Positions 17,754 to 56,150 of a DNA stretch of 64,000 nt are shown piece after piece. The position numbers and the translations under genes are program-made. The stretch is taken from assembly GCF_009735645.1 (NCBI RefSeq), contig NZ_CP032550.1:2232001-2296000 (forward strand). Reading direction: 5' to 3'. The notes below the pieces were generated by a model. That model made no database searches, was not told the DNA's origin, and worked only from the letters and a program-made list of their open reading frames with translations. The stretch's first letter is position 1. Each line of letters begins with the position of its first letter. The stretch is from Microbacterium oryzae (GTDB taxonomy: Bacteria; Actinomycetota; Actinomycetes; Actinomycetales; Microbacteriaceae).

Positions 17754-18679
17754 CAGGCTCTTCCTTCCTCGGCACCGGCGACGCCACGTCGCACGATCTC
17801 CAGCGCTGCTTCGCGGTACGCGATCGCGCCCGCGGAATTGCCGTCATATGAGATGACCGTCTTGCCAAAGCTCGGCGCTTCGGACACACGCACGGACCGT
17901 GGGATGACGGTCTCCAGCACCTCGCCCGAGAAGTGCCCGCGCACCTCGTCGGCGACCTGCTGCGAGAGGCGCGTTCGCGCGTCGAACATCGTGAGCAGGA
18001 TGGTCGTCAGCCGCAGACGGGGATTCAGATGCTTCTGGATGAGCTGGACGTTGCCCAGCAGCTGACTCAAGCCCTCGAGGGCGTAGTACTCGCACTGAAT
18101 GGGGAGGAAGACCTCCGTCGCAGCGGTGAAGGCATTGATCGTGAGCAGCCCGAGAGACGGCGGGCAGTCGATGAGCACGAAATCGAGAGGCTCGTCGCGA
18201 TGCTTGAGGTACTCCGCGAGGGCGGTCTTCAGACGCTGCTCGCGGGCCACCTGCGTGACAAGCTCGATCTCCGCGCCGGCGAGGTGAATGGTGCTCGGCG
18301 CACACAGAAGGCGCTCGTTCTCCGGGCTCGGCTGGATGACATCCGCAAGCGCGACGTCTTCGATGAGCACGTCGTACACGCTCGGAGTCTCCGCCGAGTG
18401 CGGGATGCCGAGCGCCGTGGATGCGTTGCCCTGAGGATCCAGATCGATCACCAGCACCTGCCCGCCGAGCGAGGCAAGGGCCGCTGCGATGTTGACGGTG
18501 GTCGTGGTCTTTCCCACCCCGCCCTTCTGGTTCGAGATCGTCATGACTCTCGTCGCACCAGAGAACGACACCTGCGTCTTCTCGAGGGCCCGACGGCGTG
18601 CCGACAGATTCGCCAGTTCTCGCGCGATCGGGCTGTCATCGGGCTGTGACACGTTCCCGGACTGTTTCACGTGAAACAC
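17753..18679 (-). CDS. parA: chromosome-partitioning ATPase ParA
   Basis: Deviant Walker ATPase (KGGVGKTT near residue 53, then LIDLDPQGN) that works with ParB to separate origins. Up to 308 residues if the GTG at 18679 is used, with AAGGG four bases upstream. That start lies at the edge of a perfect parS (18663-18678), so residues 2-5 (FHVK) are a translation of parS itself. Alternatives are the in-frame GTG at 18670 inside parS or the GTG at about 18652 (VSQPDDSPI). Whichever is right, ParB binding at this parS would cover the start and could give autoregulation. Confidence 0.95.
   Translation of the reverse strand: MFHVKQSGNVSQPDDSPIARELANLSARRRALEKTQVSFSGATRVMTISNQKGGVGKTTTTVNIAAALASLGGQVLVIDLDPQGNASTALGIPHSAETPSVYDVLIEDVALADVIQPSPENERLLCAPSTIHLAGAEIELVTQVAREQRLKTALAEYLKHRDEPLDFVLIDCPPSLGLLTINAFTAATEVFLPIQCEYYALEGLSQLLGNVQLIQKHLNPRLRLTTILLTMFDARTRLSQQVADEVRGHFSGEVLETVIPRSVRVSEAPSFGKTVISYDGNSAGAIAYREAALEIVRRGVAGAEEGRA
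18663..18678. promoter_or_regulatory. parS site 1 (perfect)
   Basis: TGTTTCACGTGAAACA, the full 16-bp parS consensus, overlapping the parA translation start. Confidence 0.97.
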
Positions 18680-18828
18680 TCATCCCTTCGCTGCGGTCAG
18701 GCCTCTCCTACTCTAACCGGCACACCGGCCAGCTCCCCGCATTGCGCGGCACCCTCGTCGGGACCCACAACGCGGTGCGATGCATTGGGAGCATCGCCTT
18801 TCCGCGGAACCCACGCGGTGGAGAGGGC

Positions 18829-18844
18829 CGTTTCACGTGAAACA
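18829..18844. promoter_or_regulatory. parS site 2
   Basis: CGTTTCACGTGAAACA: perfect 14-bp core, one outer-base change. Confidence 0.95.
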
Positions 18845-19117
18845 TCAAGCGTCCTGCGGCATCCATGCAGCCACCGGAGCGGGCGGTACAGGGATCCCGG
18901 CTGCGGGCGCGAAGCCGCGGGTGCGGGCGCGACAGGGCAGCCATCTCGCCTCGCTCCTCCTGCCACTAGACGCAAGGGGGCGCTTCGGAACCAGTCCTGG
19001 GTGTGACCTGGCGATATATTGCTGTGGTCGGGAGATCGGAGATCGAGAGTTGGACGAGGGCCGAACCGTGGAGCACGGTGGCACCCACGGCGCCATCGTC
19101 AACCTTGGTGCGGCCGA

Positions 19118-19133
19118 TGTTTCACGTGAAACG
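19118..19133. promoter_or_regulatory. parS site 3
   Basis: TGTTTCACGTGAAACG: perfect 14-bp core. Confidence 0.95.
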
Positions 19134-19361
19134 TGGGCGCTGACCCCACAGAGGCGGATGCCCCGCCAGTTTCGCACTGGCATGATGCTCGAACGAGGCC
19201 TGCAGGCGTTCCTTCTCGTCGCCCGGCCGAGCGTTCACCACCCCACGCTAATCACACTTGATGACCTAGAAAGCGCGGCTGCCCGTCGAGGTACTGGGTA
19301 CACAGCCGACGAGGCGCTCGTCCGCGACTTCGTATGCAGCGCTGTGGCACCCCGGTACGAG

Positions 19362-19377
19362 CGTTTCACGTGAAACG
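19362..19377. promoter_or_regulatory. parS site 4
   Basis: CGTTTCACGTGAAACG: perfect 14-bp core and fully palindromic. Confidence 0.95.
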
Positions 19378-19842
19378 GTGGCGTGCGGCGCCGGCCGTGA
19401 GTACTACGCTGCCGCCCACGACGATCGCTTCGTCGAGGCCGCGCACTGAACGCGTGCGATGTGCGCTGGACCGCGTCACCCGACCGTACCGGTCCCTCAG
19501 TCGCGTTGAGGAGACGGTATGCCCGTCCGCCCTGCCCCCGCAGATGTTCGCGTCGGCCGCTCCCGCCGCGCCTGCGCGCTGGCTGTGTCGACGGTGGCCC
19601 GCAAGCGCACGGTGGGAACGCGCAAACAGTGCCGTCGGACGCGCCTGCCGCCAACCACTATTCTCGCCCGCGGCGGGACGCGATCCCGCGGGGTCGTCCG
19701 CGTGCGATGACGCACAGGCGCGGTGCCGGTGACCATCTGTGCTCACCTGGTCACGAAAACACCAGGCGAACCTTGGCGGTCCGGGGGCGCCCTGCCCATA
19801 CGATCCCGGACCAGCCGCGGTTGCGTAACGGCGCCGCGGTCG

Positions 19843-19858
19843 TGTTTCACGTGAAACG
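19843..19858. promoter_or_regulatory. parS site 5
   Basis: TGTTTCACGTGAAACG: perfect 14-bp core. Confidence 0.95.
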
Positions 19859-23787: not shown

Positions 23788-23985
23788 GGAATCACTCCGA
23801 AGGGACGGTCACCGGAATCGTGTGACCGGAGACGAGAGTTGTGGGAGCCCCGAAGGGCATAAGTCAACCGATTCAGCGTACGCCGAACGACGACCATCCG
23901 GCAAATGAGCCAGACAACCTGACAGTATCTCCACAGCGACACCCCTCGACGATGCAGGACACGCAGGGGAGCGCGAAGAGGGAGT

Positions 23986-24031
23986 TTGCCGTTCAGGATC
24001 CATCCACTAGCGTGTCACCGAGTTATCCACA
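23986..24031 (+). promoter_or_regulatory. probable dnaA promoter with DnaA box
   Basis: TTGCCG (23986-23991), a 16-bp spacer and TAGCGT (24008-24013) resemble a sigma-70-type promoter. A perfect DnaA box TTATCCACA at 24023-24031 lies between it and the dnaA ATG, consistent with DnaA autoregulation. A weaker box-like TCTCCACA is near 23930. Confidence 0.55.
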
Positions 24032-24044
24032 GGCTAGGAGAGGC

Positions 24045-25439
24045 ATGAGCGCGCACGACATCCCAGACGTCCCCGTCTGGCGAACGGTGCTGGCGGAGCT
24101 GGCCGGAGACGGTCGGATCACTCCTCTTCTGGAGGGATATCTGAGCCTCGCTGTCCCGCAGGGAGTCATGGGCGGCACCCTCTACATCGACGTCCCGAAC
24201 GATCTCACCGCTGCGCAGATCAACAAGCGCATGCGCGAGCCGATCATGGAGGCGCTCGAGCGCATCGGGGCGGACGCGAAGTCCTTCCGCGTCTCGGTGA
24301 ACCCCGAGCTCACAGAGGCCGCGCTCGATGCGCCCGCTCCCGCAGCTCCCGAGGAGACGGCTCCGCAGCGCCCGGTGGCTCAGACCTCCGCGCCGGCGAC
24401 CCGCTCCCGCGACGACACCCGGCTCAACCCCAAGTACACGTTCGACAACTTCGTCATCGGGCAGTCGAACCGCTTCGCCCACGCGGCGGCGGTCGCCGTC
24501 GCCGAGGCGCCGGCGAAGGCGTACAACCCGCTCTTCATCTACGGCGACTCCGGCCTCGGCAAGACGCACCTCCTCCACGCGATCGGCGACTACGCACTCA
24601 ACCTCTATCCGGGTGTCCGGGTGCGCTACGTCTCGAGCGAGGAGTTCACGAACGACTTCATCAACTCGATCGCGAACAACCGCGGCGCGGCCTTCAACGC
24701 GCGCTATCGCGAGGTCGACATCCTGCTGATCGACGACATCCAGTTCCTGCAGGGCAAGGCCGAGACGCAGGAGACGTTCTTCCACACGTTCAACACCCTG
24801 CACGATCACGACAAGCAGGTCGTGATCACCAGCGATGTCGCCCCGAAGCTCCTCACCGGCTTCGAGGACCGCATGCGCAGCCGGTTCGAGTGGGGGCTCA
24901 TCACCGATGTGCAGGCGCCCGACCTCGAGACGCGCGTCGCCATCCTCCGGAAGAAGGGGCAGGCCGAGCGCCTGGACATCCCCGACGACGTGATCGAGTA
25001 CATCGCGTCCAACGTGTCCACGAACATCCGCGAGCTCGAGGGCGCGCTCATCCGTGTCTCCGCCTTCGCGAGCCTGAACCGCTCATCCGTCTCGCTCGAG
25101 CTCGCTCAGACGGTGCTGCGTGACATCGTCGATCAGGCGGAGGACACCGTCGTCTCGCCGAACGACATCATCAGCGTGGTCGCGAGCTACTTCAAGCTGA
25201 CCGCCGACGATCTGCACGGCTCCAGCCGCGCACAGTCGGTGGCGCAGGCGCGGCAGATCGCCATGTACCTCTGTCGCGAGCGGACCAGCCTCTCGCTGCC
25301 GAAGATCGGACAGCTCTTCGGCGGACGCGACCACACGACGGTGATGTACGCGTACCGCAAGATCAACGAGCTCATGAAGGAGAAGCGCTCGGTCTACAAC
25401 CAGGTGCAGGAGATCACCACGCAGCTCGGACGCCGCTGA
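24045..25439 (+). CDS. dnaA: chromosomal replication initiator DnaA
   Basis: 464 residues from the ATG at 24045 (MSAHDIPDVPVW), preceded by AGGAGAGG. An in-frame ATG 68 codons upstream runs through the promoter and DnaA box and is rejected. Domain I is N-terminal; a Pro/Ala-rich linker follows near residue 90-120. The AAA+ domain has P-loop GDSGLGKTH (about 168) and Walker B LLIDDIQF (about 227), and the DNA-binding domain IV has GGRDHTTVMYAYRKI (about 426). Opens oriC as an ATP-bound oligomer. Confidence 0.98.
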   Translation: MSAHDIPDVPVWRTVLAELAGDGRITPLLEGYLSLAVPQGVMGGTLYIDVPNDLTAAQINKRMREPIMEALERIGADAKSFRVSVNPELTEAALDAPAPAAPEETAPQRPVAQTSAPATRSRDDTRLNPKYTFDNFVIGQSNRFAHAAAVAVAEAPAKAYNPLFIYGDSGLGKTHLLHAIGDYALNLYPGVRVRYVSSEEFTNDFINSIANNRGAAFNARYREVDILLIDDIQFLQGKAETQETFFHTFNTLHDHDKQVVITSDVAPKLLTGFEDRMRSRFEWGLITDVQAPDLETRVAILRKKGQAERLDIPDDVIEYIASNVSTNIRELEGALIRVSAFASLNRSSVSLELAQTVLRDIVDQAEDTVVSPNDIISVVASYFKLTADDLHGSSRAQSVAQARQIAMYLCRERTSLSLPKIGQLFGGRDHTTVMYAYRKINELMKEKRSVYNQVQEITTQLGRR

Positions 25440-25458
25440 GCGCACGTTCTTCGACGAG

Positions 25459-25488
25459 GGGCCCGGAACCGACGTTCCGGGCCCTTTT
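25459..25488 (+). terminator. rho-independent terminator after dnaA
   Basis: GGGCCCGGAAC (25459-25469), loop CGAC, GTTCCGGGCCC (25474-25484), then TTTT. Perfect 11-bp stem. Confidence 0.92.
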
Positions 25489-25894
25489 GGCGTCCTCAGA
25501 GCCTCCTGGGCGCGCTTGACGCGGCCTGGGAGAAGCCCCTATAAGAAGTTCTCCCCATGTGAAAACTCCTGTGGATAACTGGGGAGACACGCCTCGGAAG
25601 CTGTGTAGGACACGCCCTCTCGATGTGGAGCGGCCTGTGACAGCGAGGTCGGCGCCCTTCTCCGTCTCCACGGAGCGTCCTCACGTCATCCACAACTCAC
25701 ACACATGTCGTTCCCTACTCCCGTCTCGCATCCACAGAGTTATCCACACTCTCCACAGCGGTTAACACGGTTAAGAGATCTCTTTCTCTGAAGGGGCTCC
25801 GATGACCTTCTCGACGGACCGCGACACCCGGGGCACTAGCATGGGAGACCCGTGGGCGGTCTGCGCCCGTTTCGTCATCCGAGGGGAGCGACCC
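25489..25894. other. oriC: dnaA-dnaN intergenic origin
   Basis: Perfect DnaA boxes are TGTGGATAA at 25570-25578 (reverse) and TTATCCACA at 25740-25748. Near matches are TCATCCACA 25686-25694, GCATCCACA 25728-25736, CTCTCCACA 25749-25757 and TTCTCCCCA 25549-25557. An AT-richer stretch follows at about 25759-25793 (GGTTAACACGGTTAAGAG, then ATCTCTTTC), a candidate unwinding element next to the 25728-25757 box group. The remaining 100 bp carries the dnaN leader. Location between dnaA and dnaN is standard for actinobacteria. Confidence 0.88.
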
Positions 25895-27040
25895 GTGAAG
25901 TTCCACGTGAACCGCGACGTGTTCAGCGAGGCCGTCTCGTTCGTCGTCAAGCTGCTGCCCCAGCGGAACCCCCAGCCGATCCTCGCCGGCGTCCTCATCG
26001 AGGCGACCGAGGACGGGAACCTCGCGCTCTCAGCCTTCGACTACGAGGCTTCCGCACGCACGACGATCGAGGCCACGGTCGACGAGCCCGGCACGATCCT
26101 CGTCCACGGGCGCCTGCTCTCCGACATCGCCAGCCGGCTTCCCAACCAGCCGATTCAGATCTCCACCGAGGACGACGGCAACATCTCTCTCACCTGCGGC
26201 TCCGCCAGCTTCGCGCTCGCGTCGATGCCGGTCGAGGAGTACCCCGCGATCCCCGAGGTCACCGGCGAATCCGGTCTCGTCCCCGGCGACGACTTCGCGA
26301 CCGCGATCTCGCAGGTCGCGTTCGCCGCCTCACGTGACGACGTCACCCCGGTGCTCACGGGCGTGCAGCTCGAGGTCTCGGGTCTCGGTCTCAGCCTCGT
26401 CGCCACCGACCGCTATCGCGTCGCGGTGCGCGACATCCAGTGGGATGGCAGCGAGCAGCAGGCCGCAGCGCTCGTTCCCGCCCGCACGCTTCAGGAGGTC
26501 GGCAAGACGTTCTCGCACGGCGGGAACATCTCCATCGCCTTCTCCGGCTCGGGCGACCGCGAGATCATCGCGTTCACCGCGGGCAACAAGACCGTCACGT
26601 CGCTGCTCATCAAGGGCAACTTCCCGCCCGTGCGCCGCCTCTTCCCCGCGCAGACCGAGCACTACGCGGTCGTCAGCACGGCCGACCTGGCCGAGGCCGT
26701 CCGCCGTGTCTCGCTGGTGCTCGACCGCTCGGCGCCGCTGCGCTTCACGTTCTCGACCTCGCAGGTGACGATGGACGCCTCGGGCGGCGAGCAGGCGCGC
26801 GCCTCCGAGTCGGTGGACGCGCACCTCACCGGCGGCGACGAGGTCACGCTCGGTCTGAACCCGCAGTACCTCCTCGAGGCGCTCGGCGCGGTGAAGAGCG
26901 AGTTCGTGCGCGTCACGTTCACGTCGAGCGACAACGCGAACAAGCTCAGCCCGATCCTCATCACGAGCCAGACCTCGGTGGATCAGGCCGGCCAGGACTC
27001 GTTCAAGTACCTGCTGCAGCCGAACCTCCTGCTGCGCTGA
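25895..27040 (+). CDS. dnaN: DNA polymerase III beta sliding clamp
   Basis: 381 residues from the GTG at 25895 (VKFHVNRDVFSEAVSF), preceded by GAGGGGAG. An upstream in-frame ATG 31 codons earlier has no ribosome site. Three clamp folds in tandem; typical segments are LLPQRNPQPILAGVLIEA near the start and NPQYLLEALGAVKSE near the end. Forms the ring that holds polymerase on DNA. Confidence 0.97.
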   Translation: MKFHVNRDVFSEAVSFVVKLLPQRNPQPILAGVLIEATEDGNLALSAFDYEASARTTIEATVDEPGTILVHGRLLSDIASRLPNQPIQISTEDDGNISLTCGSASFALASMPVEEYPAIPEVTGESGLVPGDDFATAISQVAFAASRDDVTPVLTGVQLEVSGLGLSLVATDRYRVAVRDIQWDGSEQQAAALVPARTLQEVGKTFSHGGNISIAFSGSGDREIIAFTAGNKTVTSLLIKGNFPPVRRLFPAQTEHYAVVSTADLAEAVRRVSLVLDRSAPLRFTFSTSQVTMDASGGEQARASESVDAHLTGGDEVTLGLNPQYLLEALGAVKSEFVRVTFTSSDNANKLSPILITSQTSVDQAGQDSFKYLLQPNLLLR

Positions 27041-50412: not shown

Positions 50413-51312
50413 GTGACCGCCGCCGACCGTCCTCGCAATACGGACGACTTCTGCTACCGGCATCCCGATCGGCAGAGCTTCGTCCTGTGTCAGCGGTGTC
50501 TGCGCACCATCTGCGCGGAGTGCCAGACGCAGGGGCCGGTCGGCGTGGTCTGCCCGGAGTGCATGAAGGAGCAGCGGAAGAGCCGCACGAGCGCGCAGCG
50601 ACGCGCTGAGCGCCGCTGGGGCGGCCGGTCCGTCTCCGCGGTCGGCGGTCGCCCGCGCGCGATGGGCTGGATCGCGGGCGTCACCGCCGCGGTCTACCTC
50701 CTCCAGATGCTCGACACCTACGCGCTCGGCGGCGCCCTCGGCGTGCAGTACTGGCTGATGTTCTACGCGCCGGCGCTGTACCCCGACCTCACGGCCGTGT
50801 TCCAGCCGTGGCGGCTCGCCACGGTGGCGCTCGTGCACGGCGGCTTCTGGCATGTGGGGCTCAACCTGCTCTCGCTGTGGATGATCGGACGCATCCTGGA
50901 GCCGATCATCGGCACCGCGCGGTTCCTCGCCGTGTACGCCCTGTCCACGATCGGCGGCTCCGTGGCGGTGGCGCTCCTGGCCTTCTCGACGCCCGTCGTC
51001 GGCGCCTCCGGGGCGGTGTTCGGGCTTCTCGGCGTGCTGCTCGTGATCGGCCGGCACCTCGGCGGGGACATCCGCGGCATCCTCGTCGTGCTCGGGATCA
51101 ACCTCGTCATCGGATTCGTGCCGGGCTTCAACGTCTCCTGGCAGGCGCACGTGGGCGGGCTCGTGACCGGCCTCATCGTGGGGCTCATCCTCGCGCGCAC
51201 GAGCGAGCGCAGCCGACGCGGGCTCCGCATCGCGCTGCTGTCCCTCGTCCTCGTGGGACTCCTCGCGCTGCTGGCACTCCCGCCGGTGCTGCATCCCGCC
51301 GCGTTCGCCTGA
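50413..51312 (+). CDS. rhomboid-family intramembrane serine protease
   Basis: 299 residues, GTG start at 50413. The N-terminal Cys/His zinc ribbon (CYRHPD, CQRC, CAEC, CPEC; residues about 13-50) resembles a B-box. A basic linker is followed by six or seven membrane helices. The catalytic Ser lies in GASGAVFGLLG near residue 200 and the catalytic His in WQAHVGGLVTG near 243. The HVGLNLLSLW motif in the second helix supplies the usual His/Asn. Natural substrate unknown. Confidence 0.93.
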   Translation: MTAADRPRNTDDFCYRHPDRQSFVLCQRCLRTICAECQTQGPVGVVCPECMKEQRKSRTSAQRRAERRWGGRSVSAVGGRPRAMGWIAGVTAAVYLLQMLDTYALGGALGVQYWLMFYAPALYPDLTAVFQPWRLATVALVHGGFWHVGLNLLSLWMIGRILEPIIGTARFLAVYALSTIGGSVAVALLAFSTPVVGASGAVFGLLGVLLVIGRHLGGDIRGILVVLGINLVIGFVPGFNVSWQAHVGGLVTGLIVGLILARTSERSRRGLRIALLSLVLVGLLALLALPPVLHPAAFA

Positions 51313-51330: not shown

Positions 51331-51360
51331 AAGGGCCGGACCCCTCGGGGTCCGGCCCTT
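51331..51360 (+). terminator. terminator after the rhomboid gene
   Basis: AAGGGCCGGACCC (51331-51343) pairs perfectly with GGGTCCGGCCCTT (51348-51360); CTCG is the loop. Confidence 0.88.
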
Positions 51361-51379: not shown

Positions 51380-51563
51380 TTCTCCACAGGTTCTCCACAG
51401 CTGTGGGGAGGTTCTCCACGGTTAACCCGGCGTTCTGCACGGGCTCTCCACCGGGTTCTCCACCTGATTTCCCCACTTCTCCACCGAGTTATCCACAGCG
51501 TTATCCCCACTTGGGGATGAATTACACGGCTGTTGTTCACAGCTGTGGGCGGCCCTGGGGATG
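51380..51563. repeat. phased array of DnaA-box-like 9-mers
   Basis: In a 368-bp gene-free gap (51313-51680). 9-mers start at 51380, 51391 (TTCTCCACA), 51402 (reverse, TGTGGGGAG), 51412 (TTCTCCACG), 51433, 51444, 51456, 51467 (weak), 51477, 51489 (TTATCCACA, perfect), 51501 (TTATCCCCA), 51511 (reverse), 51533, 51544 (reverse) and 51555 (reverse). Steps are 10-12 bp or about 21-22 bp, so most sites face the same side of the helix. The first two form a perfect 11-bp tandem repeat (GTTCTCCACAG). No promoter or gene is evident between 51564 and 51680 apart from the leader of the next gene. Confidence 0.8.
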
Positions 51564-51680
51564 AATCACACGGTTGTCATTCGCTCACGGATCCCGTGAG
51601 ACGCCGTAGAGACCCCCGCCCGTTCTCCTGCCGGAAACCTCGTTGGCGTAGGCTCGCTCTCGAGCGCGAAAGGATCTGCG

Positions 51681-52265
51681 ATGACCGACCCGCTGCAGCT
51701 CGGCCCCGAGCACGACTCCCCGCGGCGCGCCAAGCGCACCGCGAAGAAGCGCCGTGGCGCGTGGACCGCGGTTCTCACGATCTTCGGCGTCCTCCTCCTC
51801 GTGGGGGGAGTGGCGATCGGCGCCTCGACCCTCCTGGCGCCGCAGGCCGTCGAACACGCTTACGGCACCGTCAAGGTCAGTGTGGCCGAGAAGGTGCAGG
51901 AGGTGCAGGAGGAGGTCTTCGAGGAGCTCCCCAGCGTCAAGAAGGGCGCGTCCGGCGGGAAGACCGAGCTCGACTGGTGCGACGGCACCTTCACGGAGAT
52001 GCTCTCGTACGAGCGCGAGGGCGTGCCACCGGTCTGGGCCGCGCACAACAACTGCGGCGGCGACGTCATCCTGCCGTGGGAGAAGGGCCAGCGCCTGCGC
52101 ATCGAGGGCAGCGACCAGGTCTACGAGATCGTGGACATCCGCTACACCTCGAAGATCTGGTCCTCGACCGCCGACCTCGTCGGGCTGAAGGGCGAGTTCG
52201 CGCTCCAGTCGTGCTTCTACGGCGAGGACCGCATGAAGTTCATCGGCCTCGAGCCCGTCGAGTAG
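51681..52265 (+). CDS. membrane-anchored sortase-like protein
   Basis: 194 residues. Basic cytoplasmic N-terminus, one membrane helix (WTAVLTIFGVLLLVGGVAIG), a Val/Glu-rich stalk, then a small beta domain. VWAAHNNCGGDVILPWEKG, YEIVDIRY and FALQSCFYGEDRMKFIGL line up with sortase elements: His in the GHN/GHR segment, Cys of TLxTC, and the following Arg. It is shorter than most sortases and departs from TLxTC, so catalysis is uncertain. No sorting-signal substrate gene lies beside it. Its 3' end overlaps the convergent MFS gene by 49 bp. Confidence 0.75.
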   Translation: MTDPLQLGPEHDSPRRAKRTAKKRRGAWTAVLTIFGVLLLVGGVAIGASTLLAPQAVEHAYGTVKVSVAEKVQEVQEEVFEELPSVKKGASGGKTELDWCDGTFTEMLSYEREGVPPVWAAHNNCGGDVILPWEKGQRLRIEGSDQVYEIVDIRYTSKIWSSTADLVGLKGEFALQSCFYGEDRMKFIGLEPVE

Positions 52266-53443
52266 CGCAGCCACGGCAGCACGCCGCCGCACGCCAGCAC
52301 GGGCACCGCGAGCAGGACGTACATCGCCCCGTACGCGTCGGGCAGCCATGACGCGGGGCTCGGCAGGAGCAGCGCCCCCGCGAGAAGCGGCGCGACGACC
52401 GGCGCCAGCGTGTTCGCGACGTTGAAGACCCCGAGGCCGAAGGCCGACGCCTCGGGCGGCAGGGCAGCCTGAACGAGCGAGCGGGTGGCGGTGTATCCCG
52501 CTCCCACGCCGACCCCGGCGACGGCGGTCGCGATGAGGAACGGCCCCATCGCCGTCGCGATGCCGCGCCCGATCATCGCCGCCGCGACCAGCACCAGCGC
52601 CGCGCCGAGGAGCCTGCGGGGGTCGGCTTTCGAGAGCGGGGTCGCGGCGATGGCGCTCGCAGTCGCGGTGACGGCGACCGCGCCCAGGAGCGTGGCCAGC
52701 GACACCATGCGCACGGCGTCGGCCTCCGACAGGTGCCACCGATCGAGAAAGAGATACAGCCCGAAGGTGAGGCCGGCCGCGAGCTCGACCGCGAGCACGA
52801 AGCGGATGAGCGATGCGGCCAGGAAGGCGCGCGTCAGCACCGATCGGATGGCCGGCCGGCCACCGGTCGCGGCGGCGGTGGACGGGGCGTCGTCCCGCGG
52901 CAGACGACGCACGATGAGCAGGATGGCCGCGGTCGCGAGGGCGGGGACGGTGAGGATCATCCCGGTCAGGCTGTGCGGGAGGAGCGCCGCGAGAGCGAGC
53001 CCGGGGAGCGTCCCGACGAACGACGCCGCGGAGAAGACACCGGCCGCGCGCGTGCGGTCGGCCGGGGCGAGCCGTGCGGAGAGGAGGCCGTTGATGGCTC
53101 CGAAGCACGCGTTGTAGGCCGCCTGCGCGAGCATCCACGCCGCGCCGAGCCAGGCGATGTGCGTCGCGCTGATGAGCGCCCCGGAGGCGAGCAGACCGAC
53201 CACGGCGCCACCGACCAGCCAGCCCCGTCGCCCGGTCCGGCTGCGATCGGCGGCCCAGCCGAAGAGCGGATTGGCCACCATCGCCGTCGCGGAGCCGGCC
53301 GCGATGATCGCCGCGAGGGCGGATGGCGCGCCGTCGTCTCCGACGAGGTCGCGCGTGAGGACGGAGAGCCCGACGACGGCGGGGGCGGTGAGCGAGCCGA
53401 GCACTGCGCACTGCGCGATCGCGAGCAGCAGGATCCGTCTCAT
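52217..53443 (-). CDS. MFS transporter
   Basis: 408 residues with about 12 membrane spans; MFS signature loop NPLFGWAADRSRTGRRG between spans 2 and 3 and a related motif in the second half. Its ATG overlaps the LuxR stop as ATGA, so it is co-expressed with the regulator, which may control it. Substrate unknown (sugar or drug efflux both possible). The tail overlaps the sortase-like gene by 49 bp. Confidence 0.88.
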   Translation of the reverse strand: MRRILLLAIAQCAVLGSLTAPAVVGLSVLTRDLVGDDGAPSALAAIIAAGSATAMVANPLFGWAADRSRTGRRGWLVGGAVVGLLASGALISATHIAWLGAAWMLAQAAYNACFGAINGLLSARLAPADRTRAAGVFSAASFVGTLPGLALAALLPHSLTGMILTVPALATAAILLIVRRLPRDDAPSTAAATGGRPAIRSVLTRAFLAASLIRFVLAVELAAGLTFGLYLFLDRWHLSEADAVRMVSLATLLGAVAVTATASAIAATPLSKADPRRLLGAALVLVAAAMIGRGIATAMGPFLIATAVAGVGVGAGYTATRSLVQAALPPEASAFGLGVFNVANTLAPVVAPLLAGALLLPSPASWLPDAYGAMYVLLAVPVLACGGVLPWLRYSTGSRPMNFMRSSP

Positions 53444-55863
53444 CGCGCCTCGGGCGGGTCGAGCAGTCTCAGGACCGCCGCTCGCGCCAGAGCCTCGTCG
53501 CGCGTCGTCACACCCAGCTTCCGATAGAGCGAACGCAGCTGCGCCTTCACGGTGTTGACGGATACGAAGAGGCGCTCCGCGATCTCCGCGCGGCTCGCCG
53601 TCTCGGCGAGAGCCTGCAGCACGATCGCCTCGCGCGGGCTGAGCACGGGATGCGCGTGGTCCTCGGCGATCGGCTCGGGGCGCGCGTCGAAGGCGTCGAA
53701 GTCTCGGCGGAGCACCTCGGCGGTGCCGCGCTCATCCGCCGCGACGAGGAGCGCGAGGAGTCGCTCGCGATCGGGCGCCGTCATGAGCTGCAGAGGCCAC
53801 CGCAGCTCATGCTCCGCCACCGTGGCGGCGATGCGCGCGCCGGCCTCGTGCGCGGCGCGCGCCTCCCCGCTGCGGAGGGCGCGCCGCACGTCCGCAATGG
53901 CGGCGAGCATCTCCTCGATCGGATGGGCCCCCGCGGCCGGCAGCGGACCGTCCGCCGGGGTCTGCAGGGACAGCAGCGTGCGCAGGAGCGATGACGGTCT
54001 GCGGCTGCCGGCGCGCGGAGGTTCCGGTGCCGCCCCGGCGAGGAGGTCCAGGAGCACGCTCGTCACCGCGAGGCGCTCCCGCGCGGCGGGCAGCGTCGAG
54101 CGCCGCACGCGTGTGCTGCAGGTGCGCTGGAAGCGGTGGGCGGCCTCCTGACGACGTCGCAGCATCGTCTTCGCGATCACCCGCGGTGTGAGGATGAGGT
54201 CCCAGTGCTCGATGGTCTGCAGGTGCGGATCCAGGACGTCGAGTTCGGCGAGGGCTGCCGCCGGGTCGGCGTCGTCGATCATCGTCCACGCGCGAGCGAT
54301 GCGCGCAGGCGCGCCCATGTAGCCATCGCGCCAGGTCTCCGGCCAGTCGGCGTCGACGATCGCCGCAAGACTGCGCCGTGCCGCGTGAACTCGTCCCTCC
54401 AGCGTCTCCAGGAGCGCGAGGCCCGCCAGCGCCGCGTTCCGACGATGCCGGAAGTCGTGCCGTTCTGAGAACTCCACAAGCAGGGCGAACGCTCGGCGGG
54501 CGGTCGGATGGTCGCGCGCGTAGAGCGCGCTGATCGCGCTCTGGCACAGGACCGTGCCCACGATCTCGGCCAGTCGGGGATCGGACGGGAGGCCGTCCAG
54601 CAGATCGACGCAGCGTCTCGCGGCCTCGGCCATCCGCCGTTCCTGTCCGAGCATCCGCCAGACCAGGCTCTCCAGCCCGCGGTGCACGGCGGTCTCGAGG
54701 GGGCCGAGGCTGCGAGCCTGCACGCGCGACATCACGGCCGCCGATGCGAAGAACTCGGGAGCGCGTCGCTGTGTCGCGGGTTCGGCGTTGAGCACGAGCC
54801 CGTACCAGAGGGCGAGCAGCGGATGGCGGTGGATCTGCACCGCGGGGATGCGTCGGAGGAGCGCCACGACCCGTGAGCCCTCCTCCCGCCGAAAGGGGAA
54901 GGCGCGCAGCGCGACGTGGGCGGCGAACTCCAGGTCGCGCGCCTCGAGCGCGTACTCCAGCGCGGAGAGGTCGTCCTTCAGCTCGTCGAAGAGCCAGCGG
55001 GCGATCAGGCGCCGCAGCTCGGCGAGGCGGCGCGGGTCCTGCGCGCTGAGGTCGGCAAGCGCCTGCTCGCGCACTGCGGTGCGGAAGCGGAAGAGCTGCG
55101 TCCCGTCACCCGCCTCGCCTCGATGACCCGCGCCGGCCTGCTCGAGACGGCGGAGGAGAGCTTCCGCATCGCCTCGCCCCGTCACCTCGGCGATGAGCGC
55201 GGCGCTGACGGCGGGGGCGAGAGCAAGCTCCGCGACCAGGCGGCGCAGGCCCGGTTCCCCCATCCGCTCCGCGACCTCGAGTGGAGTGGTCGCGAGGGCG
55301 GACGCGGTCGACGCGAAGTCCTGCTGCGCGATGACCCGGCGGGAGACCGCAGTGTTCGGCGTCTCGAACGCGGTGGCGGAGCGCGTCGCAACCACGCAGC
55401 GCATCGTGGCGAGCTCTCCCAGCACCTCGAGCAGGTCGGCGGCGATCCGGTCCGACACGGTCGTGTCGCGCGGGAAGCCGTTCACGACCAGCGTCACGGG
55501 CGGGTCGGCTTCGCGGAGCGCGCGAATGAGGGCGGCGACCGCCATCTCGGGGGCCTCGGAGAGCGCGGTGATCTCGCGGTAGAGCACGGCGTCGGGGAGG
55601 AGCCCGCGGGCGTGCGCCTGCGTGAGGGCGCGCAGCCAGAACGCCGCCGCCGTCGGGGCGGCAGACTCGCCGTCGATCCACACGATCGCCGTGCCCGCGT
55701 GGTCTGCTCGCGCCACCCAATGTGCGAGGACGCTGCCAGGATCGTGGAGGTCGCGCAGGACGCACAGCCGCTCCGGGCCGCCGAGCGCCGCGACGAGATC
55801 GTCGGCGACCGCGGCCTCCGCCGAGGGGAGGAGCAGCGCCGGGAACGACGCGCGCGAGGTCAT
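53440..55863 (-). CDS. large LuxR-family (MalT/LAL-like) regulator with eroded P-loop
   Basis: 807 residues. An N-terminal NTPase-like region, a long helical TPR-like middle (RRIPAVQIHRHPLLALWYG..., many Ala/Arg/Leu helices), and a C-terminal LuxR helix-turn-helix LSPREAIVLQALAETASRAE near residue 742, then FVSVNTVKAQLRSLYRKLGV. In MalT-type proteins the N-terminus has a GxxGxGKT loop; here the equivalent reads LRDLHDPGSVLAHW and lacks the Lys, so ATP control is probably lost. Coupled to the MFS gene. Confidence 0.85.
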   Translation of the reverse strand: MTSRASFPALLLPSAEAAVADDLVAALGGPERLCVLRDLHDPGSVLAHWVARADHAGTAIVWIDGESAAPTAAAFWLRALTQAHARGLLPDAVLYREITALSEAPEMAVAALIRALREADPPVTLVVNGFPRDTTVSDRIAADLLEVLGELATMRCVVATRSATAFETPNTAVSRRVIAQQDFASTASALATTPLEVAERMGEPGLRRLVAELALAPAVSAALIAEVTGRGDAEALLRRLEQAGAGHRGEAGDGTQLFRFRTAVREQALADLSAQDPRRLAELRRLIARWLFDELKDDLSALEYALEARDLEFAAHVALRAFPFRREEGSRVVALLRRIPAVQIHRHPLLALWYGLVLNAEPATQRRAPEFFASAAVMSRVQARSLGPLETAVHRGLESLVWRMLGQERRMAEAARRCVDLLDGLPSDPRLAEIVGTVLCQSAISALYARDHPTARRAFALLVEFSERHDFRHRRNAALAGLALLETLEGRVHAARRSLAAIVDADWPETWRDGYMGAPARIARAWTMIDDADPAAALAELDVLDPHLQTIEHWDLILTPRVIAKTMLRRRQEAAHRFQRTCSTRVRRSTLPAARERLAVTSVLLDLLAGAAPEPPRAGSRRPSSLLRTLLSLQTPADGPLPAAGAHPIEEMLAAIADVRRALRSGEARAAHEAGARIAATVAEHELRWPLQLMTAPDRERLLALLVAADERGTAEVLRRDFDAFDARPEPIAEDHAHPVLSPREAIVLQALAETASRAEIAERLFVSVNTVKAQLRSLYRKLGVTTRDEALARAAVLRLLDPPEAR

Positions 55864-55913: not shown

Positions 55914-56150
55914 TCACCGCCACTGCGTCGTCATGAGGAAGCCGACGAAGGCGATCCCGAAGCCGATGACGAGGTTCCATGCGCCGATGTCGGGGATCGG
56001 GAAGGCCATCCCCGAGAGGTAGAAGACGAGGATCCACACCAGCCCGATGAGCATGAAGGCCACCATGACGGGCTTGAACCAGACGGGGTTCGGGCCCTTG
56101 CCGGTCTCGGGCTGCTCGAGGGGTTCGTCGCCCTGGGATGCTCGTGCCAT
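55914..56150 (-). CDS. crgA: cell division protein CrgA
   Basis: 78 residues from the ATG at 56150 (MARASQGDEPLEQPE). A short polar N-terminus and two membrane helices (WFKPVMVAFMLIGLVWILVF and AWNLVIGFGIAFVGFLMTTQ), the family layout. CrgA binds FtsZ and penicillin-binding proteins and coordinates septum formation in actinobacteria. A longer frame adds 66 Arg-rich residues overlapping pknB and is rejected. Confidence 0.93.
   Translation of the reverse strand: MARASQGDEPLEQPETGKGPNPVWFKPVMVAFMLIGLVWILVFYLSGMAFPIPDIGAWNLVIGFGIAFVGFLMTTQWR

Follow-up and report, generated by a model that had tools for sequence, protein, structure and literature searches.

The gap downstream of a rhomboid gene in Microbacterium oryzae holds a small element that probably represents an ancient site of replication control. 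We identify it as a putative crgA-side DnaA site of the mycobacterial type, found in relatives in the gap beside crgA near oriC, and describe here its sequence, phasing, conservation and position. The conserved unit is a core of about 60 bp, and the long array of DnaA boxes seen in the window (the whole stretch of 64,000 nucleotides that was analysed) is a local extension of it. In our preferred reading, to which we give a probability of about 0.52, the element is an origin-proximal, non-promoter DnaA assembly site acting on DnaA itself, as a sink or inactivator comparable to datA of Escherichia coli.

A dense and phased array of DnaA boxes

An earlier note on this DNA had reported about 15 DnaA-box-like 9-mers within 184 bp, aligned on one face of the helix, 26 kb from oriC and more tightly packed than the boxes of oriC itself. 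We indeed found 15 such 9-mers with at most two mismatches to TTNTCCACA, starting between positions 51380 and 51556, among which the pair 51467/51469 overlaps; one is TTATCCACA and two are TTCTCCACA. Eight of the 15 have at most one mismatch. By this stricter measure, oriC is the densest other place within the window, with 4 boxes per 200 bp vs 8 in the array. The oriC boxes lie at ~25.5-25.8 kb of the window, in agreement with the distance of ~26 kb. At the same threshold, the window counts 23 boxes against 9.7 (sd 3.0) in 100 shuffles, an excess that the earlier note had proposed to look for, and 8 of the 23 fall in the array. For comparison, exact copies of TTNTCCACA occur 24 times in the 3.04-Mb chromosome, and the array holds three of them. 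The 11 non-overlapping forward boxes of the array follow one another at spacings of 11, 21, 21, 11, 12, 11, 10, 12, 12, and 32 bp. Their best period is 11.0 bp (R 0.91), a fit equalled by a fraction of 0.0004 of 5000 random placements, which bears out the helical phasing.

We also ranked the 404 kb around the array by boxes per 200 bp (at most one mismatch). The array ranked first with 8, a stretch preceding dnaB second with 5, and oriC third with 4. The dnaB cluster (G000:C1:2474591-2474790, ~18590-18790 of locus L130) stands directly upstream of the gene, which was identified by the Pfam domains PF00772 and PF03796; a DnaA site upstream of dnaB is known in Mycobacterium tuberculosis too (PMC7738170). 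The window further carries five parS-like 16-mers with a GTTTCACGTGAAAC core inside 1.2 kb (18663-19858), ~5.6 kb before oriC.

Table 1. Features of the element and its surroundings, in window positions.
Feature	Position	Strand or orientation	Sequence, basis or remark
oriC region, between dnaA (23841-25439) and dnaN (25895-27040)	25440..25894	+	comparison site
Rhomboid-family membrane protein gene, left neighbour	50419..51312	+	PF01694, E 5.3e-32 (Pfam scan of the longer ORF from 50311)
G+C-rich hairpin past the rhomboid stop, separate from the element	51333..51358	+	read from sequence only; terminator scan gave no site
Left extension, lineage-specific	51380..51485	+	degenerate forward DnaA boxes at 51380, 51391, 51412, 51433, 51444, 51456, 51467/51469, 51477; reverse at 51402
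Conserved core, ~60 bp	51486..51546	+	model R1, 59 bits, E 1.1e-16 in 404 kb; alignment A1
Core box1	51489-51497	forward	TTATCCACA
Core box2	51501-51509	forward	TTATCCCCA
Core box3	51512-51520	inverted	TGGGGATGA
Core dyad ACAC-GG-CTGT	51524-51533		one mismatch to ACACNNGTGT
Core box4	51533-51541		TTGTTCACA
Second, partial copy of the core's right half	51555..51586	+	inverted box TGGGGATGA and dyad arm; R1 positions 27-57, 22.8 bits, E 2.3e-5
194-aa gene, between element and crgA in this lineage	51681..52265	+	no Pfam/NCBIfam match at E 0.001
crgA (cell-division protein CrgA)	55917..56150	-	PF06781, E 7.7e-27; tblastn

The features of the region are listed in Table 1. The core ends 135 bp ahead of the start of the 51681 gene. 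The name "sortase-like" that the earlier note had given to this gene found no backing in the profile searches. Its relatives were identified in 3 of 58 genomes, its own included, and the nearest relative (G060, locus L005) has it in the same place, with the element on one side and crgA on the other. In the window, crgA lies 4371 bp (4.4 kb) from the core, vs its usual state elsewhere as the convergent neighbour. The three genes that separate them (51681-55863) encode the 194-aa protein, an MFS transporter, and a LuxR-type regulator. A scan of the element gave no sigma-70-like promoter by consensus and no terminator.

Anatomy of the core

The general plan of the core consists of two forward boxes, an inverted box, the dyad ACAC-NN-GTGT, and then often a forward box of the TTATTCACA type. 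When one mismatch is allowed, the dyad was found in 43 of 48 core loci vs 33 of 960 shuffles, a count that is partly circular since the model that chose the 48 loci includes the dyad. In three families (f14, f38, and f45), the model matched some loci on both strands, with the boxes mirrored, and the element is therefore nearly symmetric in these loci. Both-strand matches around one centre, with boxes on both arms, were seen in L190, L192, L207, L212, L235, L236, L242, and L243. When searched genome-wide in 99 genomes of the genus, the symmetric 16-bp palindrome WTTACACNNGTGTAAW had no match, since most cores have two unlike arms.

Distribution of the element in Microbacterium

Relatives of the rhomboid gene occur in 117 of the 119 genus genomes, and we read the loci of 110 of them (the 117 less G023, G030, G063, G064, G068, G086, and G126). 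The core is present in all 110, which answers the earlier note's call for conservation in relatives. It was identified in 106 by a direct scan for box1, box2, and inverted box3, with scores of 21 to 27 (the maximum being 27), and in four by the model. With the same scan, none of the 110 upstream windows scored above 18 and one of 330 shuffles reached 21. The four genomes found by the model are G104 and three (G102, G079, and G004) in which the core is ~1.1, 2.2, and 1.7 kb, respectively, from the rhomboid gene. Among the 106 loci, the gap between box1 and box2 is 3 bp in 101, and that between box2 and box3 is 2 bp in 63, 3 bp in 41, and 1 bp in two. The core is inverted relative to the rhomboid gene in 27 of the 106, across six clades of the rhomboid tree.

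The long array is much rarer. Chains of at least three added boxes, counted in the direction of box1 only, were found in 12 of 106 loci vs none of 550 random anchors, and 82 of the 106 have no added boxes. What the earlier note had taken as the site therefore stands in part: the identity of the DnaA boxes holds by sequence and phasing, whereas the conserved unit is the core and the array a local extension. Other Microbacterium arrays keep the phase, with periods of 10.7-11.0 bp in L005, L024, L025, L036, and L040 (p from 0 of 5000 to 0.0096); phasing is weaker in L110, L064, and L067 (p 0.013-0.022). In L025, the spacers of 12-13 bases are mutually unrelated while the boxes and their steps (21, 21, 21, 22, 21) persist, which argues against tandem duplication. 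The spacers of L024 are likewise unrelated, as are those in the longer gaps of the window array; in L036, by contrast, the first bases are common to three spacers. The alternative raised by the earlier note, a degenerate tandem repeat, is thus disfavoured. On the rhomboid tree, built on 109 of the 110 loci, the 12 array loci form seven pure clades and need five changes. This suggests that phased arrays probably arose more than once.

The position of the element is also conserved. The distance from dnaA to the end of the rhomboid gene is 11.4-104 kb, with a median of 14.7 kb; it is 11-45 kb in 95 of 96 genomes, and all are on the dnaN side. These distances cover 96 of the 117 genomes, leaving aside G004 (rhomboid inverted relative to dnaA), pairs on different contigs, and some others such as G034 (pair spanning the contig end). 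Where both were identified, the rhomboid gene and crgA face each other across the element: this is so in 106 of 107 loci of the genus and in 149 of 150 others, some of which share genomes (the exceptions are L043 and L206; one-gene loci were left out).

The element beyond the genus and its linkage to crgA

To search more widely, we used R1, a sequence-only model of 63 positions and 62 rows, two of which (L140 and L143) sit at oriC of another genus. At E 0.01 it hit 252 of 297 order-level and 179 of 246 class-level genomes, and at E 0.001 it hit 59 of 149 at the level of the phylum. These totals are not counts of elements, because weak matches take in oriC and other box clusters. CrgA was located by its own alignment in 239 of the 246 class genomes. 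Among the matches listed, 97 genomes have both an R1 and a crgA entry, and in 83 of them the best R1 match lies -3 to 255 bp past the end of the crgA match. The 14 exceptions among the matches listed are the window, nine genomes of family f44, and four others. In two of the nine f44 exceptions, the best match is near contig base 1500, perhaps oriC. In 12 of the 97, again among the matches listed, more than 1 kb of the same contig separates the best match from crgA, some of these matches being at the origin. Three f44 genomes (G734, G819, and G846) carry the core and crgA at opposite ends of the chromosome as numbered, a natural separation of the two.

Direct reading of loci outside the genus gave a similar picture. 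In one set of 20, crgA is near in all. Among another 20 chosen by hand, 16 have crgA within ~1 kb and one at 1.6 kb, one has the rhomboid gene but no crgA, and the last two sit upstream of dnaA and at dnaA-dnaN, respectively. In L238, the core stays beside the rhomboid gene and ppiA. A pattern scan of a genome collection returned at least 100 stretches, and all 80 whose titles were listed are actinobacterial; crgA is within 1 kb in 98 of 100 listed stretches, and the other two are cut off beside the rhomboid gene or ppiA. The three top matches outside the class have crgA at 9 bp (L366), 20 bp (L367), and ~0.4 kb (L368). The identity of CrgA was verified by Pfam in the window, L225, L366, and L367.

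Some matches depart from the full plan. The four loci read in family f37 match the box half of the model only. In g77, another genus of the family to which Microbacterium belongs (L140-L144), the pattern matches between dnaA and dnaN, and the origin boxes are laid out like the left half of the element. We also found 14 viral contigs in IMG/VR (L352-L365) with triplets of box1, box2, and an inverted box but without the dyad, possibly DnaA-box clusters of phages. All 20 R1 matches in these stretches stop by position 40 of 63, and tblastn revealed no crgA, rhomboid, ppiA, dnaA, or dnaN in the 14.

Correspondence with the mycobacterial DnaA site

Mycobacteria have a DnaA site in the gap beside Rv0011c, which we take to be crgA. 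According to the study describing it, both IDAP-seq and EMSA show DnaA of M. tuberculosis bound to the Rv0010c-Rv0011c region, and DnaA occupies the homologous site in vivo in ChIP-seq of M. smegmatis (PMC7738170). The region is one of five strong DnaA sites, all five having homologues in the M. smegmatis data, contains a palindrome of two DnaA-box-like sequences, and stands upstream of Rv0010c (PMC7738170). Variants of the site in M. tuberculosis have longer cells, like variants of dnaA, which the authors compare to hypomorphs; the initiation rate of the dnaA variants is reported as unchanged, as is the expression of Rv0010c and Rv0011c in dnaA mutants (PMC7738170). In vitro, the M. tuberculosis site is also bound by another protein, HigA2, whose absence is reported to go with raised Rv0010c (PMC11205783). 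The authors of the first study remark that they see no evident equivalent of the site in other species and leave its function open (PMC7738170).

Our core offers an answer to this remark. Among the matches listed, ten named mycobacterial contigs carry it, with crgA within 1 kb in nine and cut off in the tenth, and a single pattern is common to the named Mycobacterium, Mycolicibacterium, and Microbacterium contigs. None of these ten loci has a rhomboid match beside the core. Our literature search returned no account of the element beyond the mycobacterial site of PMC7738170. In the literature joining crgA and the DnaA box, crgA turns up in reference lists only, and PMC13270200 does not mention crgA or Rv0010c.

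Possible function

We infer that DnaA binds the element in M. oryzae. Box1 and box2, head to tail and 12 bp apart, would nucleate a compact DnaA complex together with the inverted box3 and the dyad. In the lineage of M. oryzae, this complex may then grow leftwards over about eight weak boxes, in steps of 11 or 21 bp, as a head-to-tail DnaA filament. The copy number of the element would double soon after initiation, since it lies 11-45 kb from dnaA in nearly all Microbacterium genomes, and the doubled element would then bind or inactivate DnaA in the manner of datA, damping re-initiation. The convergent neighbours, the free orientation, and the nearness to oriC suggest an action on DnaA itself and not on a promoter. 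The array runs in one direction, as do the essential boxes of E. coli datA (PMC5742627), which speaks for a sink. Other points go against it. The longer cells seen in M. tuberculosis site variants are the reverse of what losing a pure sink should cause, and the inverted box3 resembles the DARS core, in which one of three boxes is opposed, as much as datA. Moreover, the boxes are few for a titrator, because 82 of the 106 genus loci lack a phased extension. A simple view is further complicated by a minimum of the GC skew that coincides with the element and by the f37 loci that match the box half only.

A core with two boxes one way and one opposed, as in DARS (PMC5742627), might instead assemble ADP-DnaA, promote the release of ADP, and raise ATP-DnaA. 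The cell lengthening of the mycobacterial variants, resembling that of dnaA variants, would fit the loss of such a positive site, and conservation concerns the compact core, not how many boxes there are. Yet a position near oriC better suits a brake acting after initiation, and the added boxes of the 12 array loci run in the direction of box1 (the sole direction counted), which is the order of datA or oriC. We thus favour the sink and regard a reactivator as rather unlikely. It is quite improbable, in our view, that DnaA at this site controls the transcription of a neighbour, be it the rhomboid gene, crgA or, in the window, the 51681 gene. The element is within 255 bp of the 3' end of crgA in 83 of 97 genomes among the matches listed, a gene starts 135 bp on in the window, and in M. 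tuberculosis DnaA is bound upstream of dnaB. The M. tuberculosis site is a target of HigA2 in vitro and Rv0010c rises when that protein is missing (PMC11205783), and the layout is still compatible with a promoter role in mycobacteria because the site there is upstream of Rv0010c. Such a role is nevertheless unlikely because neighbours converge on the element at nearly all two-gene loci, its orientation is free, and core and crgA are separable. In addition, relatives of the 51681 gene are confined to 3 of 58 genomes, no sigma-70-like promoter appeared in the consensus scan, and mycobacterial neighbours are reported as unaffected in dnaA mutants (PMC7738170).

The dyad, together with the mirrored boxes of some f14, f38, and f45 loci and the closeness to crgA and, within the genus, to oriC, could also point to an architectural or segregation site, where a complex of DnaA or another protein marks the origin domain or couples replication to division. 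We find this improbable: parS sites exist elsewhere in the window (18663-19858), and the best match is more than 1 kb from crgA in 12 of the 97 genomes listed, some at the origin. A second or relocated replication origin is very improbable. Over 404 kb, the cumulative GC skew reaches its lowest point at 2283800, no more than 0.5 kb from the element, but the skew is too weak over this distance and we rejected it as evidence of a relocated origin; a two-segment fit places the change at 2131800. Furthermore, TTATCCACA boxes are present in a 1.5-kb stretch at the 3' end of dnaA in 20 of 20 relatives read, and the most AT-rich 30 bp reach 0.57 in the element vs 0.63 in oriC. We give almost no credence to a degenerate 11-bp tandem repeat or structured RNA that merely resembles DnaA boxes. 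Tandem Repeats Finder calls short units of 11-12 bp in the array, three L036 spacers begin with the same bases, and four elements have RNA folding z-scores of -1.7 to -2.4. However, the mycobacterial site is bound by DnaA (PMC7738170), Rfam gave two weak matches and none at cut-off, and L025 and L024 keep boxes and phase while their spacers are unrelated. The arrays of seven clades and the free inversion of the element also argue against both.

To our knowledge, how DnaA is restrained after initiation is largely open in actinobacteria, and we know of none with the E. coli systems of the SeqA/Dam and Hda type. A core of ~60 bp that extends from Microbacterium to mycobacteria and to three loci outside the class would open the restraint of DnaA to a deletion and reconstitution experiment, and the arrays of seven Microbacterium clades would provide a natural strength series of one site. 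Tentatively, one may go further and propose an ancient single-copy element across the Actinomycetota, centred on the dyad, which lies next to crgA not far from oriC and would set DnaA activity as the actinobacterial counterpart of datA/DARS. In this broader proposal, ACAC-NN-GTGT would bind a further protein and some lineages would have repeatedly extended the element into a phased filament track.

Comparison with known DnaA sites

The element differs from oriC, which is defined by its position between dnaA and dnaN and an AT-rich unwinding stretch: it lies 26 kb off, with a lower AT maximum. It also differs from a tandem repeat, where the whole unit, spacer included, is repeated. Like E. coli DARS1 and DARS2, it has a compact three-box core with one box opposed, a likeness by description and not base by base (PMC5742627). 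In the element, box3 is the opposed one, and box1 and box2 are 3 bp apart in 101 of 106 loci. With E. coli datA (the DDAH site), the element shares a non-coding cluster of DnaA boxes that point one way and lie on the same side of the chromosome as the origin, to which the core adds the opposed box3. datA differs in having an IHF site between its boxes and in lying ~0.5 Mb from oriC (PMC5742627), whereas the element has the ACAC-NN-GTGT dyad and, in 95 of 96 genus genomes, is separated from dnaA by 11-45 kb. The DnaA-box clusters of Streptomyces coelicolor are similar in being chromosomal clusters said to repress untimely initiation. One of them, H69, is presumably named after a cosmid that may carry crgA, and could be the same element. 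The Rv0010c-Rv0011c site has been described in mycobacteria only, and the ten named mycobacterial loci gave no rhomboid match next to it. Yet, like the element, it combines clustered DnaA boxes with a small palindrome and occupies the gap next to crgA, and it is by this position and description, not base by base, that we equate the M. tuberculosis site with the core.
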